Assembly (NCBI RefSeq): GCF_000517085.1
Contig: NZ_KI912107.1
Span: 1,054,398-1,118,397, forward strand
DNA: 64,000 nt
Reading direction: 5' to 3'
Origin: Saccharicrinis fermentans DSM 9555 = JCM 21142
GTDB lineage: Bacteria; Bacteroidota; Bacteroidia; Bacteroidales; Marinilabiliaceae
Below, one piece after another: positions 7,562 through 61,289 of the stretch. Positions within the stretch are counted from its first letter, which is position 1. Each line of letters starts with the position of its first letter. The position numbers and the translations under genes are program-made. The notes below the pieces were generated by a model. It worked only from the letters and a program-made list of their open reading frames with translations. It was not told the origin of the DNA and searched no databases.

Positions 7562-7647
7562 ATAGTAAATTATACTATAAAAAACACAATGCTTATAAAA
7601 TAGCCAATTACATTAAAGTTTCTATTCTTATTTTCTATGCTTATGTT

Positions 7648-7737
7648 TATCTTTCAATGGTCATACGGAACTTGCTAAATTTACTCATTCCCTTGTGTGC
7701 AAAAACATTCCCGTGGGCTCTTCATATGTTTAAAAAT
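7648..7737 (-). repeat. Degenerate copy of the ~90-bp repeat, upstream of the aldose epimerase
   Basis: Read on the minus strand it matches the units at 49.1 and 57.5 kb. On the plus strand AATGGTCATACGGAACTTGC corresponds to their AATGGTCATATGGAACTCGC, followed further on by a TTGTGTG block and TTCATATG. It lies between the epimerase start and the sulfatase terminator, in the same orientation as the epimerase gene. A 68-residue plus-strand frame over it is a by-product of the repeat. Confidence 0.65.
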
Positions 7738-24716: not shown

Positions 24717-27644
24717 ATGAGTAAGGTTTGTACTGTGATGGTTTTTAAGTTGATTTTTATATGTCTAAATTTATTTTTCAATGGTTATATGGCACTCGCC
24801 ACAGTCAATGATGCTCTTGTGAGTGAAACAAATTCCAAGGCTTGGTTCACATCTCAGTTTGTTGTATGTTCTAAGGGAGACCAAATAACTACGGATACAA
24901 AGGTTAAATATTTGTCCGGTACAGGTAATGATGATATGGTGGAGTGGGATTTTTATTGTTCAGAAGGTATGAATAGTGGTAAATGGACTAAAATAGGAGT
25001 GCCTTCGTGTTGGGAGCAACAGGGTTTTGGGGCATATAATTATGGTAGCGATCCTATGGAGGATCGTGCCAGCGAGTATGGTCTTTACAAACGTAAGTTT
25101 ATGGTGCCTAAGGAATGGAGGGATAAGGACATTGATATTGTTTTTGAAGGTGTCATGACGGATTGTGAAGTAAAGATAAATGGAAAATCCGCAGGGAGTG
25201 TACATCAAGGTGCATTTTATGAGTTTAAATATCCTATCTCTGGTTTGTTAGCGTATGGAACAGAAAATGTTCTTGAGGTAAAAGTGAATAAGGTTTCAGC
25301 CAATGAGTCTGTTAATCATGCCGAAAGAGAAGCCGATTTTTGGATATTTGGAGGTATTTATAGGCCAGTGTATTTGACGATTTCACCCAAAGAGAATATA
25401 GATCGTGTGGCTATAAATGCCCAAATGAATGGTGAAATTTTTGCTGATGTATGGGTGGATGCGAAAGAAGCGGATCGGTTGGAACTTGCATTGTATGACT
25501 TGGATGGGCAAAAGATTCAGGATCTGAAAATAAATTCTTTTGAAAAAAGTAAGTTAAAGTGGAGTGTGAGCGCGCAAGCGAATCATATACTTTCCTGGAA
25601 TCCAGAGCGCCCTCACCTTTATGTTCTTCAATTTGTTTTGTTAGATAAAGACGGTAGGCCTTTGCATAAAGTAAGTCAACGAATTGGCTTTCGTACTGTT
25701 GAAGTGTTGGAGGGTGATGGTATCTATGTGAATGGGCGACGGGTAAAGTTCAAAGGTGTCAATCGGCATTCTTTTCATCCCGTGTCGGGGCGTACTACCT
25801 CAAAATCCTGGAGTATTGAACAGGCAACAATGATAAAAGATATGAATATGAATGCTGTTCGTATGGCACATTATCCACCTGATGTTCACTTTTTGGATGT
25901 ATGCGATTCCTTGGGTTTGTTTGTTATAAATGAAATATGCACTTGGCATAACCCAATACTGGATACAAAAATAGCGCGTAAGATTATTAAAGAAACTGTT
26001 GTTAGAGATGTGAATCATCCTTGTATATTGCTTTGGGCCAACGGAAATGAGCAAGGTTGGAATTGTGAAGTCGATGATGATTTTTCCAAATGGGATATTC
26101 AAAATAGAGAAGTGATTCATCCTTGGGGAGTTTTTCGGAAGACAAATACAATTCATTATAGCCAGTATCATTCTTTGGTTAATGATGCGTATACCAAAGA
26201 TAAAATTTTGTTTCCTACTGAATTCTTACACGGTTTATATGATGGTGGTCATGGTGCCGGTTTGCAGGATTATTGGGAAATGATGTGGGATATGCCCTTG
26301 AGTGCAGGTGGTTTTCTATGGGATTTTGCAGATGAAGGAATTGTACGAACAGATAAAAACGGAGAAATAGATTTGCAGGGTAATAAGGCGCCTGATGGAA
26401 TTGTTGGGCCCAATGGAGAAAAGGAAGCTAGTTATTTTACCATTAAGGAAGTGTGGTCACCCCTGTATATAGAGGATCGCTTTATCCGTGAAGATTTTAA
26501 TGGCCTTTTTAGAATTGAAAACAGATATAGCTATACGAATCTCGGGGAGTGTGATATGACTGCTCAATGGGTGGAGCTTTGTGGTCCGGATGAAATGGCT
26601 GGGAACCGCTTATTGTCAGAAACGAAAGTTCAATTACCTAATTTAGCTCCCATGTCAAAAGGGGAGTTTAAAGTAACTATGCCTGATAATTGGCATCTGG
26701 CCGATGTATTGTACTTGAAGGCGAGGGATCCGTACGGTAAAGAGATATTCACATGGAGTTATCCTGTCGCTTCTCCCAAAAGAATGAATCGTAAATATAT
26801 TGATTATTCCACCATTGGCGGCATAAAAACGAATACCAGTCAGCAAGTCATAAAAGTTGAAACTGATAATGTTAGTTATTTGTTTTCTAAAGAAACAGGC
26901 TTGTTGAAGGAAGTGAGAAAGGGGGATCGGGTTATCCCACTAAATAATGGACCCCTTATTTTAAATCAAAATGATGAAATTGACTCCCTCGTTGTTACTA
27001 CTCATAAAGATAGTGTGGTGATTAAAGTGGTGTTTGAAGCATCTGAGTGGATGCCTGTGTGGTCAACTATTCGAGAAAAAAGGTCTGATGTTATTAAATG
27101 CACCGTGCATACCAATGGCTTGCTGGACCTCAAGGTTCAATTGAAGGGTTTTAGAAATCTGAAAGCTTATCGGGGTATTACTTTCTCGTTTCCTGAGTCG
27201 GAAGTGGCTGGGATGAAATGGTTGGGGGATGGACCGTATCGAGTATGGCGAAATAGAATGAAAGGAACAAGATTTCAGGTGTGGGAAAATGACTATAATA
27301 ATACGGTTACTGGGGAGTCGGGATTTGTGTATCCTGAGTTTAAAGGATTTTTCTCGAATATCTACTGGTCAAAAATTAAAGGACGTGAAAATAATGGTTT
27401 TACGGTTTATTGCCGAACGCCGCATACGTATTTGAGAATGTTAACTCCCCAAAATCCCAAAGGAGATCATAAGGGGCGCGTGAGTCCCTTATTCCCGCAA
27501 GGAGATATTTCTTTTGTGATGAATATACCGGCTATCGGTACAAAATTTCAGAATTCCAATACCATGGGACCACATGGTAATTTGGAATACTATTTTGGTA
27601 ATGATGATGCACCTATGGTGATGGATTTAACTTTTCAATTTTGA
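24717..27644 (+). CDS. GH2 family glycosidase, exported (beta-galactosidase-like)
   Basis: About 975 residues from ATG 24717 (MSKVCTVMVFKLIF). ATG 24702 and 24738 are alternatives, and the frame is open back to 24585 but with non-conserved residues. Jelly-roll N-domain (GVPSCWEQQGFGAYNYG, ADFWIFGGIYRPVYL), Ig-like domain, and TIM barrel with KGVNRHSFHPVSGRTT, acid/base Glu in LWANGNEQGWN (about residue 444) and nucleophile in FPTEFLHGLYDGG (about 502). A C-terminal sandwich follows. It differs from the LacZ-type enzyme at 11.9 kb, so substrate could be galactoside, glucuronide or another beta-glycoside. Its signal-peptide region is a recognisable copy of the 90-bp repeat. Divergent from the regulator at 23.3 kb. 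Confidence 0.85.
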   Translation: MSKVCTVMVFKLIFICLNLFFNGYMALATVNDALVSETNSKAWFTSQFVVCSKGDQITTDTKVKYLSGTGNDDMVEWDFYCSEGMNSGKWTKIGVPSCWEQQGFGAYNYGSDPMEDRASEYGLYKRKFMVPKEWRDKDIDIVFEGVMTDCEVKINGKSAGSVHQGAFYEFKYPISGLLAYGTENVLEVKVNKVSANESVNHAEREADFWIFGGIYRPVYLTISPKENIDRVAINAQMNGEIFADVWVDAKEADRLELALYDLDGQKIQDLKINSFEKSKLKWSVSAQANHILSWNPERPHLYVLQFVLLDKDGRPLHKVSQRIGFRTVEVLEGDGIYVNGRRVKFKGVNRHSFHPVSGRTTSKSWSIEQATMIKDMNMNAVRMAHYPPDVHFLDVCDSLGLFVINEICTWHNPILDTKIARKIIKETVVRDVNHPCILLWANGNEQGWNCEVDDDFSKWDIQNREVIHPWGVFRKTNTIHYSQYHSLVNDAYTKDKILFPTEFLHGLYDGGHGAGLQDYWEMMWDMPLSAGGFLWDFADEGIVRTDKNGEIDLQGNKAPDGIVGPNGEKEASYFTIKEVWSPLYIEDRFIREDFNGLFRIENRYSYTNLGECDMTAQWVELCGPDEMAGNRLLSETKVQLPNLAPMSKGEFKVTMPDNWHLADVLYLKARDPYGKEIFTWSYPVASPKRMNRKYIDYSTIGGIKTNTSQQVIKVETDNVSYLFSKETGLLKEVRKGDRVIPLNNGPLILNQNDEIDSLVVTTHKDSVVIKVVFEASEWMPVWSTIREKRSDVIKCTVHTNGLLDLKVQLKGFRNLKAYRGITFSFPESEVAGMKWLGDGPYRVWRNRMKGTRFQVWENDYNNTVTGESGFVYPEFKGFFSNIYWSKIKGRENNGFTVYCRTPHTYLRMLTPQNPKGDHKGRVSPLFPQGDISFVMNIPAIGTKFQNSNTMGPHGNLEYYFGNDDAPMVMDLTFQF
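24757..24845 (-). repeat. Degenerate 90-bp repeat copy inside the GH2 signal-peptide coding region
   Basis: Plus-strand AATGGTTATATGGCACTCGC (24780-24799) corresponds to AATGGTCATATGGAACTCGC, the complement of the units at 49.1 and 57.5 kb, and similarity continues on both sides. In the protein this is NLFFNGYMALA, against NLFLNGHMELA read from the complement of the other copies. So the repeat has been incorporated into a coding sequence. Confidence 0.6.
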
Positions 27645-28749: not shown

Positions 28750-28783
28750 GAGCTGTCTTAAATAAATCAAGACAGCTCCTTTA
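28750..28783. terminator. Terminator-like hairpin in the graveyard region
   Basis: GAGCTGTCTT (28750-28759) pairs perfectly with AAGACAGCTC (28769-28778), followed by CTTTA. It is probably the former terminator of the decayed fucosidase gene. Confidence 0.6.
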
Positions 28784-44395: not shown

Positions 44396-44550
44396 TAGTC
44401 TTTGCAAGAAAGCTCTAAACACTGCGTTATTCTCATTTTTGAAACAGTCATTTAATCAGTAAACTCCTTGGTTTCAAAAATATCAAAAGCCTTGTCTTTG
44501 AAACTTTCTTATCAAAGACAGAAAAAACAGTCGTTTTCTTGCAGCCACTA
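44396..44550 (-). repeat. MITE-like 155-bp repeat, copy B
   Basis: Inverted relative to copy A at 11.4 kb and about 95 percent identical by eye. Ends TAGTCTTTGCAAGAAAGC and ...TTTTCTTGCAGCCACTA. Non-coding. It lies 183 bases after arsG in a gene-free block. Confidence 0.75.
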
Positions 44551-44826: not shown

Positions 44827-45040
44827 GCAGGGTTGGCCAGAACAATAGCCCCGGGGCCGGCATTGGCGAGAAGCTATGAACCCGGAAAATGCATTAAAAA
44901 ATCTCTTACGAATAAAAGGCACGTTCAATTAAGTCGACAGAGAACTGGTTTAGATTCACTATAGCTGTGCTATCTTATTTCAACAAGTTATTGATTGCAC
45001 TTTTCGTTCACGTGTCGAATTCTAATGCATTTTTCGGGTT
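44827..45040 (+). repeat. Large palindromic repeat, copy 2
   Basis: Starts GCAGGGTTGGCCAGAACA like copy 1. The arm AACCCGGAAAATGCATTA (44879-44896) is inverted at 45023-45040 (TAATGCATTTTTCGGGTT), 17 of 18 bases paired. The interior has diverged from copy 1 but keeps a CTATAGCTGTGCTATC-like hairpin. No transposase beside this copy. Confidence 0.6.
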
Positions 45041-48124: not shown

Positions 48125-49040
48125 ACGCTACGCTAAAAATCCAATCCTCCAAAAGGAGGATATCCCCTATCCAGTAGCCACGGTACATAATGCCGGTGTA
48201 GTTAAATATCAAGGGAAATATATGATGATATTCCGTTCTCATTTATTCAATGGGCGCAGTATAATAGGTCTCGCCGAAAGTGAAGATGGTTTTCACTTTA
48301 AGGCGAGAGCCAAGCCTTTTATGGTTCCTTCTGATCAGGAACCTTTTAAGGCATACGAAGAGTATGGGGTGGAAGATCCGCGTGTGATATTTATGGAGGG
48401 TGAATATTTGATTACTTATAGCGCGTACTCGCGTCATGGAGTAAGGGTTGGATTAGCTAAGACAACAGATTTTGAAACGGTCCAGCGTTTTTCTATGATT
48501 ACAGAAGCTGACTACCGAAACGTGGTTATCTTTCCGCAAAAGTTTAATGGTCTGTATGCTCGGTTGGATCGCCCTCACTCCGAAATATCACCTTGGTCTG
48601 TTTGGATCTCTTATTCGCCCGATTTAAGGTTTTGGGGAGAATCTAAATTAATTATGAAACCGGTTCAGTATCATTGGGATGAAATGAAGATAGGTCCGGG
48701 GGCACCCCCTATCAAAACAGAGCGGGGGTGGCTGAATATATATCATGGTGTATTTCCTACCATGGACGGATGTGTGTATCGTCTGGGTGTTGCGCTTCAT
48801 GAACTAGACGACCCTTCTCGTATCATTGCCGTCGGTGATCAATGGATCCTACAGCCAGAAGAGATGTATGAGATTACAGGTTATGTGCATAATGTCGTCT
48901 TTACTTGTGCGGCAGTGCCAGAAGACGATGGTACATTAAAATTATACTGGGGCGGTGCCGATAAAGTCATGTGTGTAGGCACGGCAGTTATAGATGAGTT
49001 GGTAGATCATTGTTTAAATCATCCTAGAAAAGCCATTTAA
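48114..49040 (+). CDS. GH130 mannoside phosphorylase-like protein
   Basis: A 308-residue five-bladed beta-propeller enzyme. YGVEDPRVIFMEGEYLITY carries the catalytic Asp region of GH130; NVVIFPQKFNGLYARLDRPH and IGPGAPPIKTERGWLNIYHG are the other hallmark segments. Characterised GH130 members phosphorolyse or hydrolyse beta-mannosides. There is no signal peptide, so it is cytosolic. It overlaps the GT4 fusion gene and precedes another GT4. Phosphorylase versus hydrolase cannot be settled from the sequence by eye. Confidence 0.88.
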   Translation: MLIKRYAKNPILQKEDIPYPVATVHNAGVVKYQGKYMMIFRSHLFNGRSIIGLAESEDGFHFKARAKPFMVPSDQEPFKAYEEYGVEDPRVIFMEGEYLITYSAYSRHGVRVGLAKTTDFETVQRFSMITEADYRNVVIFPQKFNGLYARLDRPHSEISPWSVWISYSPDLRFWGESKLIMKPVQYHWDEMKIGPGAPPIKTERGWLNIYHGVFPTMDGCVYRLGVALHELDDPSRIIAVGDQWILQPEEMYEITGYVHNVVFTCAAVPEDDGTLKLYWGGADKVMCVGTAVIDELVDHCLNHPRKAI

Positions 49041-49047
49041 ATTTAAA

Positions 49048-49228
49048 ATGAAAGGAGCCATGGGAATTGTTTCGCACACAGGGGGGATGATTAATCTGGG
49101 CGAGTTCCATATGGCCTTTGAAAATTTAATTGTAATCATATGAAATGAGCATGAGAGTAATCTCTCACACAGGTGAATGATTATCACGGCGAGTTCCATA
49201 TGACCATTAAGAAACAAATTATAAACAT
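49048..49228 (+). repeat. Two tandem ~90-bp repeat units (R1, R2)
   Basis: R1 is 49048-49139 and R2 49140-49228. Each begins ATGAAA and the second runs straight into the ATGAAA of the GT4 gene at 49229. The shared core is CTCACACAGGTGAATGATTA in R2, then GGCGAGTTCCATATG and an AT-rich tail ending CATATGAAA. R1 is diverged. Units contain a GAGAGT..ATCTCTC hairpin. Confidence 0.8.
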
Positions 49229-50236
49229 ATGAAAGTAGCTATTTTAGCACCTATCGCTTGGCGAACACCTCCGTTACATTATGGTCCTTGGGAGCAAGTG
49301 GCCTCTAATATTGCGGAAGGATTGGTGAAAAATGGAATCGACGTTACATTGTTTGCAACCGGTAATTCATCCACTAAGGGAAAATTGGAATATGTTTCGG
49401 AAACGGCCTATGCCGAGGACCCAAGCCTCGATGCGAAAGTGTGGGAGTGCCTGCATATTAGCCATCTGATGGAACATGCGCATGAATATGATCTGATTCA
49501 TAATCATTTTGATTTCTTACCCTTAACGTATGCCAGACTGATTGATACGCCAATGCTAACCACTATTCATGGCTTTTCTTCACCCAAAATTATTCCCGTT
49601 TATAAGAAATATAACGATATATGCCACTATGTGTCCATTAGTTATGCTGATAGGAGTGCAGCATTAGATTATATAGCGACTGTCTATAACGGAATTCATG
49701 TGGATGATTTCACATATCGTGCAAAACCCAAAGATTACCTATTGTATTTTGGTAGAATCCATCCGGATAAAGGTACTTATGAAGCGATTATGATCTCGAA
49801 AATGGCCAAGCGAAAACTTATTTTGTCAGGCCTAATTCAAGATCAGGCTTATTTCGATGAGAAAATAAAACCTTATATAAACGATCAAGATGTTGTGTAT
49901 GTGGGCAATTCAGGACCAGATAGTCGAGATACCCTAATAGGAGAAGCTTATGCTTTGTTACACCCCATTCATTTTGATGAGCCTTTTGGTTTAAGTGTAG
50001 CTGAATCAATGATGTGTGGAACACCGGTAGTTGCGTTTAATAGAGGGTCTATGCCAGAACTTATTCAATCGGGAAAAACTGGTTTTTTGGTCAATGATAT
50101 ACAGGAGGCAGTGGATTCACTGAATGCAGTGAAATCAATAGATCGAGCCTACTGCCATCAGTGGGCTAAAGCAAAATTTAGTCAAGCAAAGATGGTGGAA
50201 GGTTATATAGATGTATATCATAAAATATTGCAATAA
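49229..50236 (+). CDS. GT4 glycosyltransferase
   Basis: A 335-residue GT-B enzyme. LAPIAWRTPPLHYGPWEQVA is the acceptor-side loop, DLIHNHFDFLPL follows, YFGRIHPDKGTYEAI opens the nucleotide-sugar domain, and HFDEPFGLSVAESMMCGTPV holds the E-x7-E donor motif. No signal or membrane span. It lies between two GH130 genes, which suggests that it builds a mannoside that they degrade or remodel. Its ATG is the last three bases of the repeat junction. Confidence 0.88.
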   Translation: MKVAILAPIAWRTPPLHYGPWEQVASNIAEGLVKNGIDVTLFATGNSSTKGKLEYVSETAYAEDPSLDAKVWECLHISHLMEHAHEYDLIHNHFDFLPLTYARLIDTPMLTTIHGFSSPKIIPVYKKYNDICHYVSISYADRSAALDYIATVYNGIHVDDFTYRAKPKDYLLYFGRIHPDKGTYEAIMISKMAKRKLILSGLIQDQAYFDEKIKPYINDQDVVYVGNSGPDSRDTLIGEAYALLHPIHFDEPFGLSVAESMMCGTPVVAFNRGSMPELIQSGKTGFLVNDIQEAVDSLNAVKSIDRAYCHQWAKAKFSQAKMVEGYIDVYHKILQ

Positions 50237-50286
50237 AATAAATTTTTTGTATTTGTAACGGAGCAATCCGTACATTATTAACAATC

Positions 50287-51756
50287 ATGAAACAAAATAA
50301 AAAGATTGACGAAATTGTCAAGAGAAAAAAAATCAGAATTGTGAGAGACGATTCACGTGTGATTACTCGACCTCACATTCCCGGAGAGGTGCAGCGTATC
50401 GATAATATTATAAAAAGAGTGATGGCTCTTGACGAGGTCAGAGCTTCGGAACTTTTGTCACAGATACATGCTCAGTTTTCTGACCGGCATAAAAATATTG
50501 ATGCCCAGTTCTATGAGAATTTTGATCGTGTAGCTGATTATATGGCCGATGTTTCTAAGTTGAGTATCACCCAAAAGAAGATTATTGGGGCCTATTTTAC
50601 AATGGAATATTCCATCGAGTCAGCCGCCCTTTTCAATCCTTCCATGATTCCGCATCCTAATCAGAAAGGTATGCCTAAGGGGCACCTCAGATTTATTACT
50701 AGTTTTAGAGCCACTGGAGAGGGGCATATATCATCTATCGTTTTCAGAACCGGAACCATCGAAAATGATTCCGTATTGTTTGACCCGGTTAGTGAATTCG
50801 TGGAAACGCATAGTATTTTGCATGATCCTGTTTATGATGCAGGATTGTTTGCTTTAAAATTGAAAGAATTGAAGGCTTGGGATGCCACAAGCCAAAAGGT
50901 TCTGGAACTAATACCTAACTCATTTACTTATCAGGAGCTTAAAGTAAGTATTGGTGTAATTTCTATGGATCCGGGTTTTGAGGTGAATGACCATTCTATA
51001 AATATGTTATATTGGTTGGCTAACTCCAATTACACCTTGTGCTTTAGTAAGAATAGTAAGGTGTCGGAAAGGGTGATCTTCCCTGTGTCGGAAAATGAAA
51101 GTGGAGGTATAGAAGATGCCCGCTTTGTTAAATTTTTTGATGACAATGGCGAATCGACCTATTATGCAACCTATACAGCTTATGATCGCTACTCTATTCT
51201 TTCTCAATTGATTGAAACAAAGGATTTTCGACAGTTTAATATGATTACCTTAAATGGACGCGGCGTTCAGAATAAAGGTATGGCTCTTTTTCCACGTAAA
51301 ATAAATGGGAAATATGCCATGCTTTCTCGTCAGGATGGGGAGAATAATTATATTATGTTTTCTGATCATTTGCATTTTTGGCATGAGTATAGCCTTATAC
51401 AGGAACCTGCTGAACCTTGGGAGTTTATTCAAGTTGGAAATTGTGGCTCCCCTTTGGAAACGTCAGAAGGCTGGCTGGTGATTACACATGGAGTGGGGCC
51501 AGTTAGACAATATTCTATTGGAGCCATACTGCTCGACTTGGATGATCCTACCAAAGTGATCGCACGACTGGAAGAACCTCTGCTAAAACCAACAGAGAGC
51601 GAACGTGAAGGTTATGTGCCTAATGTGATGTATTCTTGTGGTGGTTTGATCCATCATAATAAGCTAGTCCTTCCTTATGCCATGTCAGATACCTCCTCTG
51701 GAATTGCCATGGTGGAGGTGTCCGATTTGTTGTCTTGTATGAAGTATTATACCTGA
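50287..51756 (+). CDS. Long GH130-family protein
   Basis: A 489-residue protein whose last ~350 residues are a GH130 propeller: ESAALFNPSMIPHPNQ, SGGIEDARFVKFFDDNG with the catalytic Asp position, KGMALFPRKINGKYAMLSRQ, NCGSPLETSEGWLVITHGVG. A helical extension of about 115 residues precedes it. It belongs to a subgroup different from the short GH130 next door. Cytosolic, last gene of the four-gene glycan cluster. Confidence 0.85.
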   Translation: MKQNKKIDEIVKRKKIRIVRDDSRVITRPHIPGEVQRIDNIIKRVMALDEVRASELLSQIHAQFSDRHKNIDAQFYENFDRVADYMADVSKLSITQKKIIGAYFTMEYSIESAALFNPSMIPHPNQKGMPKGHLRFITSFRATGEGHISSIVFRTGTIENDSVLFDPVSEFVETHSILHDPVYDAGLFALKLKELKAWDATSQKVLELIPNSFTYQELKVSIGVISMDPGFEVNDHSINMLYWLANSNYTLCFSKNSKVSERVIFPVSENESGGIEDARFVKFFDDNGESTYYATYTAYDRYSILSQLIETKDFRQFNMITLNGRGVQNKGMALFPRKINGKYAMLSRQDGENNYIMFSDHLHFWHEYSLIQEPAEPWEFIQVGNCGSPLETSEGWLVITHGVGPVRQYSIGAILLDLDDPTKVIARLEEPLLKPTESEREGYVPNVMYSCGGLIHHNKLVLPYAMSDTSSGIAMVEVSDLLSCMKYYT

Positions 51757-51953
51757 TCTAAACCAAGCTTTATTGATAAATTCTAATCAGATCTTTGCGT
51801 AAGTTATTGATAAGGTGCCTATCTATTTCTTCCCAGGAAATTCCTTTATTGTGCAACAAAAAAAGGATATTCAGTGCTTTCGTAAATAATTGATATTTGG
51901 ATAATTTGTTGTATTGCCAAAAACAACTACTTTTGCTTTCTAAAGCAATCAAT

Positions 51954-52379
51954 GTGGGTAGGATAATAGCTATTGACTACGGAAAAAAGAAAACAGGACT
52001 TGCGGTAACAGATCCATTTCAGATTATTGCCAATGGTTTAGATACCGTTCCGTCACATACTTTAATCGAATATTTGGAAAAATATTTTGAGAAAGAAGAT
52101 GTGGAGCAAATCGTATTGGGATATCCCAGACAGGCTTCGGGTGAAGATTCCGAATCAATGCGGTATATAAAACCTTTTTTTAATCGTTTAAAGAACAAAT
52201 TCCCCCATATACCTGTTGAGTGGGTGGACGAACGTTATACCTCAAAAATTGCTTTTCAGGCTATGATTGATGGAGGACTGAAAAAAAAAGCAAGACAAAA
52301 TAAAAATTTGGTGGACAAGGTAAGTGCTACTATTATTTTGCAATCGTATTTGGAACAAAAAGGAAATTTGAATTTATGA
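51954..52379 (+). CDS. ruvX: YqgF/RuvX RNase H-fold nuclease
   Basis: A 141-residue protein starting at GTG 51954 ([20 protein letters not shown]). An ATG at 51897 would add 19 unconserved residues. [11 protein letters not shown] and [13 protein letters not shown] are the RNase H-fold acidic motifs, with [18 protein letters not shown] at the end. Known as pre-16S rRNA nuclease and possible Holliday-junction resolvase. Overlaps def by 4 bases. Confidence 0.9.
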
Positions 52380-52927
52380 TATTACCAGTAACTGTTTACG
52401 GGCACCCAGTATTGAGAAAGGTGGCTGATGAGATTGATGAAGACTATGAAGGTTTGGAGAAACTGATTGATAACATGTGGGATACCATGTATCATACAGA
52501 TGGAATAGGTTTGGCGGCACCTCAGATAGGAAAAAGCATACGATTAATCGTCATTGATGCGACTCCTATGGCAGAAGATTTTCCTGAGTTGGAGGGGTTT
52601 AAGCGTGTTTTGATCAATCCTATTATTTTAGAATCGGGAGATGATCAATGCAATGAATCTGAGGGGTGCCTCAGCTTGCCAGGTATACGCGAAGAAGTAA
52701 AACGCCCTACTTCAATTAAGATTGAATACGAAAACGAAAACTTTGAATTGGTGGAAGAAGAATTAGACGGGTTTGCAGCTAGAGTAGTTCAACATGAATA
52801 TGACCATGTGGAAGGAGTACTATTTGTTGACCACCTTTCTTCTCTTAAAAAAAGATTGTTAAAAAGTAAATTGACTGCCATCGCCAAAGGAAAAGTTGAT
52901 GTTAGCTATAGAATTAAGACGGCATAA
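52376..52927 (+). CDS. def: Peptide deformylase
   Basis: A 183-residue metallohydrolase removing the N-formyl group from nascent proteins. All three motifs are present: [20 protein letters not shown] and [18 protein letters not shown] (HExxH-like with metal His). ATGA overlap with ruvX, followed by a terminator. Confidence 0.95.
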
Positions 52928-52955
52928 TATCGTACTATAATACCGCATTAATTAT

Positions 52956-52989
52956 AAAGGGTAACTATTTATTTAGATACCCTTTTTTT
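52956..52989 (+). terminator. Rho-independent terminator after def
   Basis: AAAGGGTA (52956-52963) pairs with TACCCTTT (52978-52985), followed by a T tract to 52989. Separates housekeeping genes from the exopolysaccharide operon. Confidence 0.85.
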
Positions 52990-53118
52990 GATATATATTT
53001 ATCTTATGAAGTCGTTTTCTTCCTTTGGTAATAAAAAATAGGTTTTTTGTAAAAAAAACAGGTAGATATTGAGATGGATTGAATATTTTAGGGAATCATT
53101 TTTATGAAAAACTAACTT

Positions 53119-53880
53119 ATGCGAAAATTTCTTTTGTTTTCTTTTATCACCGTATTTTTTTTCGGATGTGTTCCGCAGAAAGATGTCATTTATTTGCAGG
53201 ATATTGATATAAGTAATGCTGAAAAAACATTTGATAATGTAAAATCAGAGAATACGATAAAAGTATTCGATCAAATCTATATTCAGGTTTCGAGTTTTGA
53301 TGATGGTAATATCAATTTTATGAACAATGATCCCAATCGTTACGGAGGAGGACGTTCTGAACTTGATTTGGCCATGGTATCTTATACGGTGAATAAAGAT
53401 GGAGCTGTGAAGTTACCCATCGTGGGGCAAACGAAAGTTGAAGGCTTAACAGTAGATGAAGCATCTGAAAAAATTCGTAAAGAGCTGGGTGATTATCTGA
53501 ATACCCCTTCTGTTAAAATTACCTTTGTAAATAAAAGTATTACGGTATTGGGCAGTGTTAACCGACCCGGACGGTACTTTTATGCCGCCGAGTATTTGAG
53601 TATATTTCAAGCTTTGGGACTCGCAGGTGATATATCCGAATATGGTAACCGAAAGGAAGTGGTGATTGTTAGAGATTCAAACCATCAAGTAATTCGAAAA
53701 AAACTTAATTTAACGGACATAGCTTTGTTAGGAGAAGCTGATTTATATGTTCAACCTGATGATGTTATCTATGTGGAACCACTAAAAAGAAGACATTGGG
53801 GTTTTGCTGCTTTCCCTTGGGCTGTAGTGTTAAGTTCAATTACAACCGTTATTTTGGTTGCTAACTATGTGAAACAATGA
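53119..53880 (+). CDS. Polysaccharide export lipoprotein, Wza-like
   Basis: A 253-residue outer-membrane export protein. Lipobox FFFGC (Cys about 17), a polysaccharide export domain (YTVNKDGAVKLPIVGQTKVEG), a SLBB domain (ITVLGSVNRPGRYFYA), and a C-terminal membrane span (FPWAVVLSSITTVILVANYV) typical of the short Bacteroidota form. Forms the exit channel with the Wzc-like kinase. ATGA overlap with the next gene. Confidence 0.9.
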   Translation: MRKFLLFSFITVFFFGCVPQKDVIYLQDIDISNAEKTFDNVKSENTIKVFDQIYIQVSSFDDGNINFMNNDPNRYGGGRSELDLAMVSYTVNKDGAVKLPIVGQTKVEGLTVDEASEKIRKELGDYLNTPSVKITFVNKSITVLGSVNRPGRYFYAAEYLSIFQALGLAGDISEYGNRKEVVIVRDSNHQVIRKKLNLTDIALLGEADLYVQPDDVIYVEPLKRRHWGFAAFPWAVVLSSITTVILVANYVKQ

Positions 53881-56240
53881 GTATAAAAAATAATACTGAT
53901 AATAATTCATATGTTGATATGAATAAGGTGTTGAAGCATTTACTGAGAAATTGGTATTGGTTTGCTGTTTCATTGGTGTTTTGCTTTGTGTTAGCCTTTG
54001 TTTCTATTAAGGTGTTGCCGCCTAAGTATTTAGTGTCCTCCAGTATTTATATCAAAGAGGACGTGGGACTCGAAGGTCAAAAGGCCATGGAGTTTATCCA
54101 GAGCTTTAATTTGTTTGATCAAAAAAAGAACTATCAAAATGAGATGTTAATTTTAAAATCATCTCCTATCATACGTCAAACGATAAAGCAATTAAATTTA
54201 AAAACGGCTTATTACGTAAATGATCATCTCTTGCAAAAAGAGATTTATAAGGAATCGCCCTTTGTGGTTATGGTGGATTCCTCACATCAACAAATTATAG
54301 ATACCCAGTTCGAGGTGGTTTTTAAAGAGGACGGTCAATTTATTTTGTCTGCGAATAAAGACAATTACCGTGTTATAAATTATTCTTCTGGGGTGGGATA
54401 TGAGACCGAAAAAAGTATTGATGTAAAAGAAGAGTTTTTTCAATCGGAAGTAATTGAAGGAGAGGATTATAAATTTAGAATTTATTTAAATGAACATGTG
54501 AACTTAAAGCACATTACTGGCAAAGTATATGCTTTTAAGTTGTTTGATGTGGAAAACCTGGTGCGTAGCTATCAAAATGAGTTAAAAGTGAATCCGGTAA
54601 ATCCTGAAGTGAGTGTTGTTCAGCTGGCTCTGAAATCCGCTTCGCCAGCTAAAGGGGTTGATTTTATTCATACCCTGACCGAAATATATTTGAATAAAAA
54701 TCTGGAACGAAAAAATCACTTGGCCTATAACACCATCGCTTTTATTAATAGTCAGCTGGAGGAAATTTCTGATTCTTTGAGTTTCGCCGAAAATAACCTG
54801 GAAGAATTCAGAGCTTCTAATCAAGTGATGGATATTACTACCAAAGCAACGCGTGTGATGGAACGATTGCAGCAATTGGAGATTCAAAAAAGTACAACAG
54901 AAAGAGCTTATAATTATTATGAATATTTGGATGACTATTTTCAGCAGGATGATGATTATAGTAATATTGTTGTGCCATCTTCCATGGGAGTGACCAATGT
55001 GACTTTAAATGAATTTATCAGGGACCTGCTGATATTGTCAAATCAGAGAAATGACTTGATAGCCAGGAAACAACAAAAGGGACCTTTTTTTAAGAATCTG
55101 GAAATAAAAATTGAAAACCTGCGAAATAGTATTGTGGATAATATTATTTTTTCCAAAGAGTCTTTGAAAAGGGAGGTGGCGAAATTCCAGGATCAGATTA
55201 ATCAATTGGAAGTGCAGGTAAAAGCATTGCCTAAAACTGAACGAAAGTTAGTGGGTATGCAGCGTAAGTTTAATATTAATGATGCCATATATACCTTTTT
55301 GCTTCAAAAACGGGCAGAGGCTCAAATAGCGAAGGCCGGAAACTTGCCAGAACATTTAATTGTTGAGCCGGCACGCATGCTCCAAAAGGTTTTTCCCAAT
55401 CCTAAAATTCATTTTGCCCTGGCCTTTTTTCTGGGACTCGTATTACCCGCAATGGTATTGGTGTTGATGGATGTTATTGATGATAGAATAAAAAATGAAC
55501 AGGCTTTTACGGATAAATTTTCGGATTTGCCATTTTTAGGGTCTATTTTAAAGAGTGAGGTCAAAGGTAGTAAGCTGGTTGTGCATAATGATCCCACATC
55601 TGTTGTTACAGAAACATTTCGAACCATACGAACTAACTTATCCTTTTTTAAGGAAGGTGCAGCTCATAAAACAATTTTGGTTTCTTCGTGTATCGCCGGT
55701 GAGGGTAAGAGTTTTGTGGCCAATAACCTCGGTATTTCCCTCGCTAATTTGGGTAAAAGAACTGTTATCGTTGGTTATGACTTGCGAAAATCAGGACAGT
55801 TCAGTGATTTTATTCATGATAAAAAAGGCGGTCTTACCTCTTATTATCTAAAAAATAAAGAAATCGATGAAATTATTATTGGTACCGAAATTCCTCACCT
55901 TGATTTTATTGCACCAGGGGTGATTCCTCCTAATCCCTTGGAGTTAATTGGTAATGAATTGACAGCTAACTTGTTCCAGGTGTTAAAGGCTAATTATGAC
56001 TATATCATTATTGATACTCCCCCCATTGGAGTACTTAGTGATGGTTTTATGTTGATGAAATATGCTGATGTGAATATATTCGTGGTCAGAGAAAAATATA
56101 CTAGCGAGAAAGTATTGGTTTCTGTTTTACAGGAGACCAGACAAAAGGGAATTCAGAATATAGGACTGGTACTAAATGGTAGTAAACTTGAAGGGAAAAA
56201 ATATAAGTATGATTACTACAATAAATACAATAACGCTTAA
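53877..56240 (+). CDS. Wzc-like co-polymerase and tyrosine kinase
   Basis: A 787-residue inner-membrane protein. Wzz domain with the first span at about 26-46 (WFAVSLVFCFVLAFVSIKVL), a long periplasmic coiled-coil region, a second span (FALAFFLGLVLPAMVLVLMD, about 508-527), and a cytoplasmic BY-kinase: Walker A VSSCIAGEGKSFVANNL (about 602-618), Walker A' VIVGYDLR, Walker B YDYIIIDTPP. It ends in a Tyr-rich tail (KYKYDYYNKYNNA) for autophosphorylation. Controls chain length and export of the polysaccharide. Confidence 0.92.
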   Translation: MSIKNNTDNNSYVDMNKVLKHLLRNWYWFAVSLVFCFVLAFVSIKVLPPKYLVSSSIYIKEDVGLEGQKAMEFIQSFNLFDQKKNYQNEMLILKSSPIIRQTIKQLNLKTAYYVNDHLLQKEIYKESPFVVMVDSSHQQIIDTQFEVVFKEDGQFILSANKDNYRVINYSSGVGYETEKSIDVKEEFFQSEVIEGEDYKFRIYLNEHVNLKHITGKVYAFKLFDVENLVRSYQNELKVNPVNPEVSVVQLALKSASPAKGVDFIHTLTEIYLNKNLERKNHLAYNTIAFINSQLEEISDSLSFAENNLEEFRASNQVMDITTKATRVMERLQQLEIQKSTTERAYNYYEYLDDYFQQDDDYSNIVVPSSMGVTNVTLNEFIRDLLILSNQRNDLIARKQQKGPFFKNLEIKIENLRNSIVDNIIFSKESLKREVAKFQDQINQLEVQVKALPKTERKLVGMQRKFNINDAIYTFLLQKRAEAQIAKAGNLPEHLIVEPARMLQKVFPNPKIHFALAFFLGLVLPAMVLVLMDVIDDRIKNEQAFTDKFSDLPFLGSILKSEVKGSKLVVHNDPTSVVTETFRTIRTNLSFFKEGAAHKTILVSSCIAGEGKSFVANNLGISLANLGKRTVIVGYDLRKSGQFSDFIHDKKGGLTSYYLKNKEIDEIIIGTEIPHLDFIAPGVIPPNPLELIGNELTANLFQVLKANYDYIIIDTPPIGVLSDGFMLMKYADVNIFVVREKYTSEKVLVSVLQETRQKGIQNIGLVLNGSKLEGKKYKYDYYNKYNNA

Positions 56241-56265
56241 TTGTTTTTTTTAAAAGTAGTGGTCT

Positions 56266-57393
56266 ATGTGTCTTGATAATAATCGTATTTGTTTTGTGAT
56301 TCCTAACTTTGTGACTTTTAGTACTGGAGGAGCTGAAATACAGGTGCATTACCTTACGCAGGCTTTTTTAGATAGGGGATGGACGGTGGAAGTAGTTTGT
56401 GCCGGACTGGGACATGAGAAAGAAATTAGGCAGTCTTCATTTTTTAATCGTAAAATTCAATATCATTACTATAGGAAAAGGAGTATACGTATATGTGAGT
56501 TTTGGGATGTATTAAAGGTATTGAAAAAAACAAATTCTTTCTATTATTATCAGCGAACAGATTTTGCTCTTACAGCATCTACTTATTGGTATACAAGGAA
56601 AAAAGGGAAAAATATGATTTTTGCCTTAGCAGGTGATTCTGATGCACAACGTAATAAGTATAGTATGTATTTTAAGCAGTACAGCTATACCAATTTCTTG
56701 AAAAAATGGATACGTAAAGCAGACTTTTTTTTGTTGGATAGGTTGATAGAGTGGGCTAAGAAAAGAGTAGATAAGGTGGTTTGTCAAAATCAATTTCAAC
56801 TGCAAGCCTATGAATCAGATTTTAATAGGAAGGGAATCATTATACCAAATTCTTTTTCTTTATTGAAGGAGGTAAATGAAAGCAAGGAAAAAGTAATTTT
56901 ATGGGTAGGTAATAATACACTGGTAAAACAAGCACATTTGTTTGTGGAGTTGGCAAAGAAATTTGAAATATATCGTGATTGGAATTTTGTGATGCTCGGA
57001 TCGGCCTGTGATAGCTTCTTAACTGAGGATACACCTCATAACTTAAGTGTGCTGGGATCCGTAAGCTATCAAGAAGCGAATCAATGGTTTGCCAGGGCTC
57101 GTGTGTATGTGAATACGAGCTTGAACGAAGGAATGCCTAATACTTTTATTCAAAGCTGGTTCTTTAGTACCTTGATATTGAGCCTGAATGTGGATCCTGA
57201 TCATGTTTTTAGTAGAGAGCATATGGGATTTTGTTTTCAGGGGGATCTTGTAAGGATGGAGGAATGTTTGTTGGCTATTATGGCTGGTATGGATGTGAGT
57301 CAGCAGGTGCTTAAGGGGAGCGCGTATTTTAATATGCAATTTAATTTAGCACATAATGTGGATAAGTTGATTGATTATATGAGCCTGGCATGA
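56266..57393 (+). CDS. GT4-like glycosyltransferase
   Basis: A 375-residue GT-B enzyme. FVIPNFVTFSTGGAEIQVHY is the GG-containing acceptor loop, KVILWVGNNTLVKQAHLFVE opens the donor domain, and YVNTSLNEGMPNTFIQSWF replaces the usual E-G-x-P region. Adds a sugar to the lipid-linked repeat unit in the cytoplasm. 25 bases after the Wzc-like gene. Confidence 0.82.
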   Translation: MCLDNNRICFVIPNFVTFSTGGAEIQVHYLTQAFLDRGWTVEVVCAGLGHEKEIRQSSFFNRKIQYHYYRKRSIRICEFWDVLKVLKKTNSFYYYQRTDFALTASTYWYTRKKGKNMIFALAGDSDAQRNKYSMYFKQYSYTNFLKKWIRKADFFLLDRLIEWAKKRVDKVVCQNQFQLQAYESDFNRKGIIIPNSFSLLKEVNESKEKVILWVGNNTLVKQAHLFVELAKKFEIYRDWNFVMLGSACDSFLTEDTPHNLSVLGSVSYQEANQWFARARVYVNTSLNEGMPNTFIQSWFFSTLILSLNVDPDHVFSREHMGFCFQGDLVRMEECLLAIMAGMDVSQQVLKGSAYFNMQFNLAHNVDKLIDYMSLA

Positions 57394-57469
57394 CCAAAGT
57401 AAATAATTGGACACATAGGAGAATGATAAAAGTTTGCACCGGTTAGTGAGGTTTCGCTTTTTTTAACGG

Positions 57470-57649
57470 ATGAAACAAGCCATGAGAGTGATCTCTCACA
57501 CAGGTGAATGATTATCACGGCGAGTTCCATATGACCATTAAGAAACAAATTATAAACATATGAAACGAGCCATGAGAGTGATCTCTCACACAGGAGAATG
57601 ATTATCACGGTGAGTTCCATATGGCAACTGAAAAACAAATTATAATCAT
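57470..57649 (+). repeat. Two tandem 90-bp repeat units (R3, R4)
   Basis: R3 57470-57559 and R4 57560-57649 are each exactly 90 bases and nearly identical to R2 at 49140. Each begins ATGAAA(C)(A/G)AGCCATGAGAG and can encode MK(Q/R)AMRVISHTGE before a stop. The complement stays open through both. They lie between two GT4 genes, just upstream of the one at 57675. Confidence 0.85.
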
Positions 57650-57674
57650 ATGAAATATTAATAGAATTGAACGC

Positions 57675-58907
57675 ATGAAAGTACTTCAACTGTGTGGAAA
57701 AGACTTCTTTGGCGCCGGCCGTGCAGCTTATCGCCTGCATAAAGGTTTGCTACAATGTGGTATTGAAAGTAAAATGTGGGTGGGTGCTAAACGAACACTG
57801 GATGAAACGGTTACTGATATTCATAGGGAAAAGTGGAAGAAAAAGTTGACAAAGGTTTATGTTAATCTTGAAAAAATTGCCATCAAAAGTAGTGCGGGTG
57901 GGTACAAAGAGATGTTTTCATTAGGACATCCTGCACACTCCATACGTCGACGAATCAAAAAAGAAAAACCAGATATTATTCATCTGCATTGGATCAATCG
58001 GGGCTATATGGATTTGTTGCATCTGAAAAATATAAAAATTCCTATTGTGATCTCTTTACATGATATGTGGTGGTTTACCGGCGGTTGTCACTATGATGTC
58101 ATGTGTGGTAGGTATACTGTAGGTTGTGGAAATTGTCCGTTATTAAATAACGATGGGGAATTTGGTTTGAGTTTTCGTCATTTATGTCAAAAACAGGAGG
58201 TCTTGTATAGTATACCAAATGTTACTTTAGTGGGACTAAGTGGCTGGATGAGAGATTGCGCAGCACAAAGTTTGATAGGTAGAAAAGCTCAAACAGTGCA
58301 ATTGCCCAATGGAATTGATGTGGATCATTTTACTCCTTTAGATAAACAGCTTTGTAGAGAAAAATTAAATTTACCACTTGATAAAAAGCTTATTTTATTT
58401 GCAGCTGTTGATGTTCTGTCTGAATCCAGAAAGGGCTATGCTTATATAAGTGAAGCACTGGCATTATTGAATGCCGATGAATACGAGTTGGTGGTGATAG
58501 GAGAAAAATGTAGTTATGATAGGATAGGTGGACTCAAGGCCCGTTTTTTGGGAGAAATCAATGATGACCAATGTATGATTGAATATATGTCGGCTGTTGA
58601 TGTGACGGTAGTACCTTCTTTGCAGGAAAATTTGTCTAATTTAATTATGGAAAGCATGGCTTGTGCAACTCCGGTTGTCGCTTTTCAAGTGGGTGGTAAC
58701 AGCGATATGATACAGCATCGAACAAATGGTTATTTGGCTGCGTATAGGGATGTGGTGGATTTGTCTGAAGGAATTAAATATTGTGCTGAGACTACTACAA
58801 ATAGTCATTTGTCGAGCAATGCACGAAAATATATCATGGATCATTTTTCCATTCATGATATTGCAAAAAAATATGCGCAATTGTATGAATCTATTTTAAA
58901 CAGATGA
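57675..58907 (+). CDS. GT4 glycosyltransferase (WcaC-like)
   Basis: A 410-residue GT-B enzyme. FFGAGRAAYRLHKGLLQCG opens the acceptor domain, then SLHDMWWFTGGCHYDVMCG with a Cys-rich loop (C..C..C..CP) seen in colanic-acid-type transferases. PSLQENLSNLIMESMACATP is the donor E-x7-E motif. It acts in repeat-unit assembly. 25 bases separate it from the repeat pair. Confidence 0.87.
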   Translation: MKVLQLCGKDFFGAGRAAYRLHKGLLQCGIESKMWVGAKRTLDETVTDIHREKWKKKLTKVYVNLEKIAIKSSAGGYKEMFSLGHPAHSIRRRIKKEKPDIIHLHWINRGYMDLLHLKNIKIPIVISLHDMWWFTGGCHYDVMCGRYTVGCGNCPLLNNDGEFGLSFRHLCQKQEVLYSIPNVTLVGLSGWMRDCAAQSLIGRKAQTVQLPNGIDVDHFTPLDKQLCREKLNLPLDKKLILFAAVDVLSESRKGYAYISEALALLNADEYELVVIGEKCSYDRIGGLKARFLGEINDDQCMIEYMSAVDVTVVPSLQENLSNLIMESMACATPVVAFQVGGNSDMIQHRTNGYLAAYRDVVDLSEGIKYCAETTTNSHLSSNARKYIMDHFSIHDIAKKYAQLYESILNR

Positions 58908-58985
58908 TAAGCTTATGCCTTTGATTTAATTGAAATTAATATGGAGCTGCAGTTCAAATTCATTGAAGATTAGCTTAAATGAAAT

Positions 58986-60197
58986 ATGCTTAATGTAACA
59001 AAAATAACAGATTACTTGCTGGTTTACCTGCTGGTTGCATTCTCGGGCGTGCCTTTTTTTTATAAGGCTCATATTGCCATGTTGATTGTTTCGCTGGCTT
59101 TGCCTGCTTTTATATTTGTTAGAAGAAAAAGAAATGTGGATCGTTTTTTTATTTATTACGTGGTTTTTGTCCTATGTATCCAGGTGGGACAAATGCTTAA
59201 GTTCTATGAGTTTCCTATACAAACTTATTTGGGTCTTCATGTGCGGGTGCTGTTTGCTTATTTGAGCATTAAAGCTGTAGGAAAAAAAATGATGACCTAT
59301 TATGTAGATATACTTGTTTTCTCGGTTTGGACCAGTCTTTTCTTTTATGTACTATCGTATGTGGGATCCATTGAACATTTTTTTGAAAATAGCATAGCTC
59401 CATTGTTTAGTAACCCGCTGATTAAAGAAACAAACTATAAAATCTGGCCCAGTGTAATTCTTTATACCTTTAATGCGCAGGGGGAAGGATTGGAGTGGCT
59501 TAAAAGAAATTCCGGTCCTTTTTGGGAACCTGGGGCTTTTTCTGGTTTTTTAATGGTAGCCTTATTGTTCAATATTATTATTTCGGGACAGCTGAATAAC
59601 AAAAAGAATAGAATTTTAATGCTAGGGGTATTGAGTACTTTCTCAACCTCTGGATTGTTGGTGCTGGTGGTCCTTATATCTTTTTATCTGGTTTTGAATC
59701 GTGACCTATTACGGCGTTATGTTTTGGTACCCATCGTTGTAATAACTGGAATAATTGCATTTTTTAGTGTGGATTTTTTGGGTAGTAAAGTGGTGCGAAA
59801 AATGAGTTATAGCGATGCCACTTATAATACTCGCTTTAAAAGTGCCCAAATCGATATCAATGACTTTATGCAGCATCCGGTGCTAGGTATGGGTAGATCA
59901 CAGTCAACCCGTTTTCATGGTGAGACAGAGGCCCGTGCAATACACCGTAATAATGGTGTAACCAATCATCTGGTTATGTATGGGGCAATAGCCTTTTTGA
60001 TTTATTTTTACCTAATCTACTTAGGTTTCTATCGTATGTGCAGGGTTTACGATGTGAATAGACGGATGGCTTTTTTTGCCTTGATAATTATATTGTTGAT
60101 CGGTTTTTCGCAAATTTATTTCACCAAAGTTTTTTTTATTGCGATGACTTTAATACCTGTATTGTACTGTAAGGATGAAGAAGTCCATAATACCTGA
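58986..60197 (+). CDS. Wzy/O-antigen-ligase-like polymerase
   Basis: A 403-residue membrane protein with about 10-11 hydrophobic spans. NSGPFWEPGAFSGFLMVALL is the typical loop of Wzy-like proteins, and a large periplasmic loop near HPVLGMGRSQSTRFHG precedes the last spans. It would polymerise repeat units on the periplasmic side. No Wzx flippase or initiating transferase is in the window. Confidence 0.82.
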   Translation: MLNVTKITDYLLVYLLVAFSGVPFFYKAHIAMLIVSLALPAFIFVRRKRNVDRFFIYYVVFVLCIQVGQMLKFYEFPIQTYLGLHVRVLFAYLSIKAVGKKMMTYYVDILVFSVWTSLFFYVLSYVGSIEHFFENSIAPLFSNPLIKETNYKIWPSVILYTFNAQGEGLEWLKRNSGPFWEPGAFSGFLMVALLFNIIISGQLNNKKNRILMLGVLSTFSTSGLLVLVVLISFYLVLNRDLLRRYVLVPIVVITGIIAFFSVDFLGSKVVRKMSYSDATYNTRFKSAQIDINDFMQHPVLGMGRSQSTRFHGETEARAIHRNNGVTNHLVMYGAIAFLIYFYLIYLGFYRMCRVYDVNRRMAFFALIIILLIGFSQIYFTKVFFIAMTLIPVLYCKDEEVHNT

Positions 60198-60204
60198 TAA
60201 TTAA

Positions 60205-61077
60205 ATGAAGATATTTGTTGTAATAGCCGTTTTTAATCGCAAGGCCTATACGCTTCAATGTTTGAAGCTCTTGCAGGAACAAACTTGTCAAAATATAGGA
60301 GTCGTACTAGTGGATGATGGCTCATCGGATGGTACCTCGGACGAAGTGAAACGCTTTTTTCCTGAAGTAGTGGTCGTTAAAGGAACGGGAGACTGGTGGT
60401 GGACTAAATCCATGAACCAAGGATGTAAGGCTGCCATAGAACATGGAGCCGATTTATTGATAACTTTAAACAACGATACTTATTTTAATGCTTTGCTCAT
60501 CGAAAAGCTGGTTAGATTGCATCACCAAAATCCTAAAGCTGTTATTGGATCGCTTAATTTGATAAAGAAAGAGCAAACATATATTTTCTTTTCGGGTATT
60601 AAAGATATTATCTGGTGGAAAGCCAAGGAGCTAAAATACCATAAGGCTTTTTCTCCTTTGCATGAAAATATGACAGGCTTACACCCTACCAAATGTTTAA
60701 ACGGAAGGGGAACCTTGATACCGGTTTCTATTTTTAATGAGGTGAATGGATATAACGAACAATATCCGCAGTATGCTTCTGATTATGATTTGGCCTTAAG
60801 GATTCAAAAGGCTGGTTATCCGTGTTTTATTAGTTACGATGTGGTGGTTCATTCGTATATCGAAGAAACAGGTGGTGGTAAAAGCTTTGTAAAGCAATCT
60901 GTTTTTACTTTTTTAAAATCTTTTTTTAACCCATATTCGCAAACGAGTTTAAAAATGTGGTATAGGTATTATAAGTCGCATGCACCTCAACGAGTGTTTT
61001 TAATTGGTTTTATTATGCAGTTATTGAGAACCGTTTATGCTTTTTATAAAAAACGTAATATACTTCATAAAATATAG
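60205..61077 (+). CDS. GT2 glycosyltransferase
   Basis: A 290-residue GT-A enzyme. VIAVFNRKAYTLQCLKLLQE, VDDGSSDGTSDEVK (nucleotide binding), TLNNDTYFN in DxD position, and NGYNEQYPQYASDYDLALRI (acidic base region). Rhamnosyl-transferase-like. 7 bases after the polymerase gene. Confidence 0.88.
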   Translation: MKIFVVIAVFNRKAYTLQCLKLLQEQTCQNIGVVLVDDGSSDGTSDEVKRFFPEVVVVKGTGDWWWTKSMNQGCKAAIEHGADLLITLNNDTYFNALLIEKLVRLHHQNPKAVIGSLNLIKKEQTYIFFSGIKDIIWWKAKELKYHKAFSPLHENMTGLHPTKCLNGRGTLIPVSIFNEVNGYNEQYPQYASDYDLALRIQKAGYPCFISYDVVVHSYIEETGGGKSFVKQSVFTFLKSFFNPYSQTSLKMWYRYYKSHAPQRVFLIGFIMQLLRTVYAFYKKRNILHKI

Positions 61078-61106
61078 GTGAATAGTATATAATATTTTGA
61101 TACTTG

Positions 61107-61177
61107 TCATGCTCATACAAGTAAATGATGAAGGTGATGAGTTCCATATGACCAATGAGAATTCATATTTTCATATG
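61107..61177 (+). repeat. Degenerate 90-bp repeat copy (R5)
   Basis: TGAGTTCCATATGACCAATGAG and TTTTCATATGAA match the 3' half of R2-R4; the 5' half is shortened. It lies between the two GT2 genes, upstream of the one at 61290. Confidence 0.6.
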
Positions 61178-61289
61178 AATTAACAAGTGACTTTATTGGC
61201 AGTAATTTAAGTTGTAATAGATTTTATAATGAATTTTTCGGGTTAAGCACATAAATGGTGATCATTCCTTCTCGACTAATAGCAAATTT

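Follow-up and report, generated by a model that had tools for sequence, protein, structure and literature searches.

A stretch of 64,000 nucleotides from Saccharicrinis fermentans DSM 9555 = JCM 21142 (contig NZ_KI912107.1, positions 1,054,398 to 1,118,397 of the forward strand; this whole stretch is called the window in the following) raises the question why a repeat of about 90 nucleotides begins with ATGAAA, is followed again by ATGAAA, and stands in front of genes. A preliminary description of this DNA, made from the letters alone, listed seven copies and offered a leader-peptide cassette, a recombination site for the shuffling of glycan genes, or a structured RNA as explanations. The seven copies exist near the positions given there, as found in the sequence and by BLAST, repeat search and a covariance model, the tandem spacing at 57.5 kb is exactly 90, and a genome-wide search with the unit at 57470-57559 (R3) returned 51 BLAST matches of a real repeat family that is linked to ATGAAA and to gene starts. 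The repeat is probably a non-autonomous mobile DNA element that inserts directly 3' of a pentamer, normally ATGAA, and whose own right end then is the new start codon of the gene.

The repeat family is far above chance. In the S. fermentans genome (5.98 Mb, Bacteroidales), where 40 of 191 BLAST candidates were scored, 26 of the 51 matches have at least 97% identity and are dispersed, and the copies at loci L016 and L020 sit inside copies of another repeat. Patterns of the left and right ends found 35 and 39 matches in this genome with up to 3 mismatches, as opposed to 0 with a reversed pattern. By BLAST, the repeat is present in 23 of 41 genomes chosen as relatives, S. fermentans included, an exact-pattern scan of named genomes gave at least 120 stretches, and among the 80 matches listed all belong to Bacteroidota by title or taxonomy, with Marinilabiliaceae or Prolixibacteraceae frequent among them. 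A covariance model detected the element in 43 of 295 genomes and 25 of 156 genera of the class Bacteroidia, under strict filters and with at most 14 candidates scored per genome, so that the copy numbers are lower bounds. The unit length is 87-92 nt in 140 of the 192 full copies measured, and longer variants reach 135. Sibling subfamilies (ATGAAACGACCATG, ATGAAACGAACATG, ATGAAATAGCCATG, ATGAAATGCCC...GGGCATT; L118, L160, L016, L303, L289 and others) have common ends and are mixed in arrays, and in relatives (L054, L055, L056, L061, L063, L070) small palindromes such as CCCGATAAATCGGG are nested in units just 3' of GTTCC or of the AT that follows it. Plasmids and phages gave no match to the repeat; two viral contigs in IMG/VR (L369, L370) match the left-end pattern exactly. 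In the literature, which was searched by core sequence and by words with thin coverage of subscription papers, no description of such an element was recognised.

The insertion point can be read from an empty site that occurs naturally in this genome. The sequence TCTTTGATAAGAAAGCTTC is part of a 160-bp repeat that has 42 matches there, and among the loci examined 23 distinct copies of it are empty, reading TCTTTGATAAGAA directly followed by AGCTT, and 4 more are empty with small changes. Four filled copies read AAGAA, then an insert ending in CATATGAA, then AGCTTC, whereby the insert has 101 nt in two of them and 191 nt (101 + 90) in the two others. As AAGAA stands on the left and ATGAA on the right, the left pentamer is that of the target and the right one that of the element. 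The four filled copies look related and probably go back to few events, and one of them, L235, resembles a hybrid of two subfamilies. A target-site duplication is absent from the filled site, where AAGAA occurs once, at the left, and the right pentamer is ATGAA, and the ends, ACGAGCC... and ...AAACATATGAA, are not inverted repeats; a miniature inverted-repeat transposable element (MITE) of a DDE transposon, which would need both, was therefore rejected. Insertion 3' of a short fixed target, the lack of a duplication, and an element that ends in the same sequence are thus all found, with one repeat family as the empty site. Nine units are followed by ATGAAT, ATGAAG or ATGAAC and all have ATGAAA at their left end, which places the junction between bases 2 and 6. 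In the case of leuB, a unit is present in S. fermentans and the model finds none in any of the 7 matched congeners (an eighth gave no leuB match), and all start with ATGAAA. Upstream of leuB at L351, where the covariance model is silent, a stretch ATGAAACG...CATGATGAAA can be seen by eye about 100 bases before the start codon and may be a decayed unit. Locus L024 has ATGCA as its left pentamer and ATGAA as its right one, and if the left pentamer is the target's, codon 2 of this gene would have been changed from Gln to Lys.

The array-ending copies lie mostly at gene starts. Young copies in the S. fermentans genome nearly all end in ...AAACAT and then directly continue with ATGAAA. In a multi-genome set (267 matches, collapsed to 254 non-redundant ones, of which the 225 full-length ones were used), the right end is ATGAAA in 211 units, ATGAA with a different sixth base in 9 and something else in 5. 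A further unit follows 38 of them; of the other 187, which end an array, 143 start an open reading frame (ORF) of at least 60 codons, as do 36 of 42 array-ending copies at the S. fermentans loci. For other families of the class (84 of 85 matches, as L346 repeats L286), an ORF begins at 49 copies, a further copy follows in 7 cases, and by eye another unit follows in about 12 of the remaining 28. A baseline was taken from 400 kb of the S. fermentans chromosome with a crude ORF caller that gave 293 ORFs of at least 80 codons. This region has 27 copies, 23 of them at the end of an array; these coincide with the first ATG of an ORF in 15 cases, with an in-frame ATG close to it in 3, and lie elsewhere in 5, while the ATGAA sites outside copies are distributed over 88 starts, 42 near-start positions, 238 intergenic sites and 1296 sites inside genes. 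Start and near-start positions are thus taken by 18 of 23 copies versus 130 of 368 non-coding ATGAA sites (p 7e-5, odds ~6.6), and with strict starts only, p is 2e-5. A unit lies at or near the start of 18 of the 293 called genes (~6%), and ATGAAA is the commonest ORF start by the same kind of crude calling (67 of 279). In 10 of 11 tandem pairs of this genome (p 0.012), the copy next to the gene is the one closer to R3, which is taken as the younger. Two of the ten concordant pairs, both located within copies of one and the same repeat, probably represent a single event, and the exception is the R3/R4 pair of the window.

Such an enrichment over intergenic ATGAA sites, together with the position of the younger copy nearer to the gene, could also mean active targeting of the insertion to gene starts that are being transcribed or translated, for example via an exposed non-template strand or an RNA copy, instead of insertion at any ATGAA with subsequent selection. 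However, insertions outside genes exist, and selection against other sites could produce the same bias; active targeting is regarded as unlikely, although it is the strongest of the alternatives.

Three helices, termed P1, P2 and P4, covary across the class. In the class-wide set, 15 of 18 pairs have double changes, with 237 double-change cells versus 75 +/- 9 in shuffled alignments, and 92% of the cells pair versus 20-45% in slid controls, whereby this alignment is fitted to the covariance model, which favours double-change counts. In an alignment made without the model (A1; 33 of 67 non-redundant copies, hand-picked for spread), there are 27 double-change cells versus 9.6 in shuffles. One P4 pair (CATNTG with CANATG) is A-T in 10, C-G in 10, G-C in 9 and G-T in 1 of 33 copies, and unpaired in 3. 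The 3' arm of P4 in R3 includes the right-end ATG, and the single internal TTCCAT is, as read from the sequence, complementary to the ATGAA of both ends apart from one A-C mismatch. As the S. fermentans copies age, single-side changes break pairs in 6 of 19, 21 of 28, 27 of 38 and 29 of 46 cases at 9, 19, 26 and 33% divergence (raw counts; the last 11 of 69 rows were left out, and the oldest bin includes some opposite-strand self-matches), and 3, 11, 16 and 21 double changes in these bins still pair and may represent older subfamilies. Since ageing copies lose their pairing, the structure suggests a use for spreading rather than as an RNA regulator. In line with this, P2 would pair with a mean probability of 0.20-0.44 in DNA, as opposed to 0.13-0.32 in antisense RNA and 0.05-0.06 in sense RNA, which makes sense RNA a poorer fit for P2 than DNA of either strand. 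With regard to the structured RNA that had been proposed initially, the word structured holds, given the strong covariation, and an RNA regulator is the less probable reading.

These observations can be combined in a mechanism for the mobile element. The element-carrying strand would fold into P1, P2 and P4 as a single-stranded intermediate, and the single TTCCAT would pair with the ATGAA of the left or target site or with that of the right end and thereby select both cleavage sites, in a role like that of the guide sequences in single-strand transposition of the IS200/IS605 type; the cutting would be done by a putative, HUH-like enzyme acting in trans. The element would be inserted immediately 3' of the pentamer without target duplication, and as it ends in its own ATGAA, the pentamer would be found on both sides afterwards. 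At a gene that starts with ATGAAA, the old start codon would be left upstream and the right end of the element would become the new one, bringing along an A/T-rich upstream region, and because the reading frame of the gene would be untouched, such an insertion would be tolerated where insertions within genes are not. The right end supplies the ATG and upstream bases that are rich in A (A at -6, -12 and -13, but C at -3); in Flavobacterium johnsoniae, according to PMC6847099, initiation is favoured by A at the first three of these positions and also by A at -3. The gene would then still be translated from the right-end ATG.

The same junctions, with the target pentamer left and the element pentamer right, would result from a single crossover in a shared core, if a site-specific recombinase of the tyrosine-recombinase or integron-like type inserted a circular 90-nt unit at ATGAA, and a recognition of a folded strand like that of attC would fit the covariation. 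The targets are dispersed, though, and no fixed attachment site was seen, although no search aimed at recombinase or integrase genes was made; this alternative is rather improbable.

Still less is to be expected from a leader-peptide cassette or an RNA element acting in cis, multiplied by duplication for the control of genes and now without mobility of its own. It would explain why the units sit at gene starts, and it agrees with P4 containing the start codon and folding at -4 to -6 kcal/mol as RNA, as well as with some pairs being kept by double changes in the oldest bins. Also, R3 and R4 do encode MK(Q/R)AMRVISHTGE followed by a stop, a frame of 13 codons is seen in many copies (99 of 210), and the mini-frames overlap by ATGA in young copies. 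But the frame is not conserved, as 43 of 110 distinct copies with the landmark ATGA(T/C)T are out of frame, so that the leader-peptide cassette of the preliminary description was given up; moreover, the single-side changes of ageing copies mostly break pairs, P2 covaries and yet hardly pairs in sense RNA, the downstream functions are mixed, and insertions are also found in a repeat outside genes. A leader peptide with a ribosome relay via the ATGA-overlapping mini-frames, as seen in young S. fermentans copies, was rejected as these frames are not kept in relatives. A known RNA family, ribozyme or riboswitch was likewise rejected, as no curated covariance model matches the units, and Rfam gave one chance-level match (E 2.8) and none at the units.

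The mobile element proposed here has counterparts among known systems, and it is neither an insertion sequence nor a classical repetitive extragenic palindromic (REP) element, as had been stated already. With IS200/IS605 elements and their transposase-less derivatives it has in common the insertion 3' of a short fixed sequence without duplication, the lack of terminal inverted repeats, and last bases that equal the target; its helices may correspond to the folded ends, and TTCCAT, as read from the sequence, to the guide segment complementary to the cleavage site. In IS200/IS605, as described in PMC6006769 and PMC8266576, each end has a guide just 5' of a hairpin, whereas in the repeat one TTCCAT could serve both ends; furthermore, no tnpA was seen in or beside the units of the repeat. 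Junctions of this kind and folded ends, with neither inverted termini nor duplications, would work like single-strand transposition of IS200/IS605, and as the enzyme test failed, membership in this family is not claimed. REP/REPIN-RAYT systems are also small, high-copy, palindromic and non-autonomous, but the repeat lacks the GTAG/GTGG tag (A1 by inspection), lies on start codons and is not tracked by RAYT, and the RAYT-linked repeat of this genome is a different family from the 90-nt unit. MITEs and Rickettsia palindromic elements are short mobile repeats that are compatible with gene function, the latter entering genes. The repeat would similarly be tolerated by genes, but it has no inverted termini or target duplication, and its compatibility would come from a start codon that is supplied again. 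The TAACTGA repeats of Beggiatoaceae and some Bacteroidetes, as described in PMC4679880, also cluster just before start codons, but they are 7-nt direct repeats of another sequence without a 90-nt structured unit.

The outcome of the search for the mobilising enzyme speaks against the proposed mobile element. A full-length Y1 gene was not found in the S. fermentans genome, which has four short or interrupted Y1 remnants with a longest open frame of 141 aa, and a general Y1 search found none in genome G014, although G014 has a pair of copies that are 97% alike. RAYT is absent from the element-bearing genomes G002, G006, G014 and G022 and present in G012 and G017, where BLAST detected no element. 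Y1 proteins of "subclass 1.2", assigned here by the motif Y---Q--HH described in PMC6006769, are absent from the S. fermentans genome and from the element-bearing genomes G000, G014, G015, G018, G022 and G023 and present in G010, G017 and G024, which have no element by BLAST. Flanking copies of the element are missing at nearly all of the 33 Y1 loci, 28 of which were rechecked with the covariance model: one has a clear link (L052, with a Y1 remnant and element copies at one locus) and one a weak link (L204). Both RAYT and an orphan Y1 of subclass 1.2 were therefore rejected as the enzyme. An autonomous copy was not found either, as no left and right ends were seen paired at a gene-sized distance among the 35 and 39 matches in the S. 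fermentans genome. Another search for a long version gave three left-right pairs 44, 444 and 1221 bases apart, each with a member at E >1. Thus neither ends shared with an autonomous Y1 element nor a co-occurring Y1 enzyme were observed. In addition, 44 of the 187 array-ending copies start no ORF (11 of these run into unit-like sequence), and the enrichment at gene starts may result from selection alone. At the clean empty site, the target is AAGAA and the inserted unit is from a sibling subfamily; it is no case of the main subfamily inserting at a gene. In A1, double changes occur in only 4 of 18 pairs, no more than in shuffles, the P1-P3 part, folded as DNA, reaches a z-score of only -1.3, and the folded strand is not fixed, because G-T and A-C mispairs are about equal (38 versus 34 in the class set, 15 versus 9 in A1).

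The copies of the window and the parts of R3 are as follows.

Copies of the 90-nt repeat in the window and structural parts of unit R3
Feature	Position	Strand	Evidence or context
R1, older unit	49048..49139	+	sequence; repeat family D1; BLAST 75%
R2, young unit, 96% to R3	49140..49228	+	right end continues into ATGAAA start of glycosyltransferase gene at 49229
R3, young unit, query unit, 90 nt	57470..57559	+	sequence, BLAST, repeat search
R4, older-subfamily unit, 90% to R3	57560..57649	+	sequence, BLAST, covariance model
Degenerate unit	61097..61180 (about)	+	~110 bases 5' of glycosyltransferase-2 gene at 61290
Degenerate unit	7632..7725	-	start codon at right end lost; ~125 bases 5' of aldose epimerase gene (6385-7506)
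Degenerate unit	24755..24850	-	start codon at right end lost (ATATAAAA)
R3 helix P1 (AAC, GCC with GGC, GTT) around hairpin P2 (TGAGAG/CTCTCA, 57483-57498)	57474..57526	+	both covary class-wide
R3 TTCCAT (57525-57530) and helix P4, CATATG (57528-57533) with CATATG (57557-57562)	57525..57562	+	sequence, covariation

The covariance model scores 5 of the 7 copies (E 1e-19 to 8e-6), and the units at 49048 and 57470, which are outside its table, were recovered by BLAST and repeat search. The left ATG of R1 lies 7 bases 3' of the stop codon of a GH130 gene (48114-49040) and is taken as the native start site of the next gene. A position directly before gene starts, as described initially, applies neither to the degenerate copies at 7632, 24755 and 61097, which abut no gene start and have the next same-strand ORF about 125, 186 and 110 bases away, nor to R4, whose right-end ATGAAA opens only a 3-codon frame, the glycosyltransferase ORF beginning at 57675, 25 bases past the end of R4. 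The ~160-bp repeat that offered the empty sites has two copies in the window (11436-11592, minus strand; 44396-44550, plus strand), and a piece of it precedes a broken RAYT-like gene at L051. A third short repeat of about 39 bases has three window copies (35843-35881, 44879-44917, 61206-61244), the last one just after the degenerate unit at 61.1 kb, and a Bacteroidales-1 (6S-like) RNA (Rfam RF01693) lies at 28782-28962 on the minus strand.

As the window is a sugar cluster, its copies adjoin glycan genes, and to that extent the proximity described initially is real. Genome-wide, however, none of the 30 downstream proteins scanned (of 36) is a glycosyltransferase and three are polysaccharide-degrading (GH2, GH30, sulfatase), one of the six unscanned ones (L029) being the window's own glycosyltransferase. 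Other products are LeuB, HSP20, aquaporin, carbamoyltransferase, P450 and histidine kinase, and 4 have no Pfam match. A glycan-gene association is thus not supported genome-wide, and evidence for glycan-gene shuffling did not turn up, although no test aimed at shuffling was made. Of the two biases named initially, the one to gene starts is found and the one to glycan genes is not.

A more far-reaching proposal, which is tentative and possible rather than probable, is that the repeat is a start-codon-specialised element of the whole class, in which one guide reads the ATGAA of the target as well as that of its own end, a putative enzyme inserts the folded strand, and the host gene receives a new start codon and initiation region, and that this element has moved recently without a transposase recognised in the present searches. 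If so, the translation start of 18 of the 293 called genes (~6%) in the 400 kb sampled would be due to this element. By bringing its own start codon, the mobile element would render harmless an insertion at the spot where a gene is most sensitive, and Bacteroidota, in which mRNAs have no Shine-Dalgarno sequences, would have in it a large and hidden supply of new 5' leaders. The element would also point to a mobilising enzyme that has been active recently in a genome rated 100% complete. As start codons and short "leader" frames in these genomes would often be derived from the element, it is a warning for the annotation of both.

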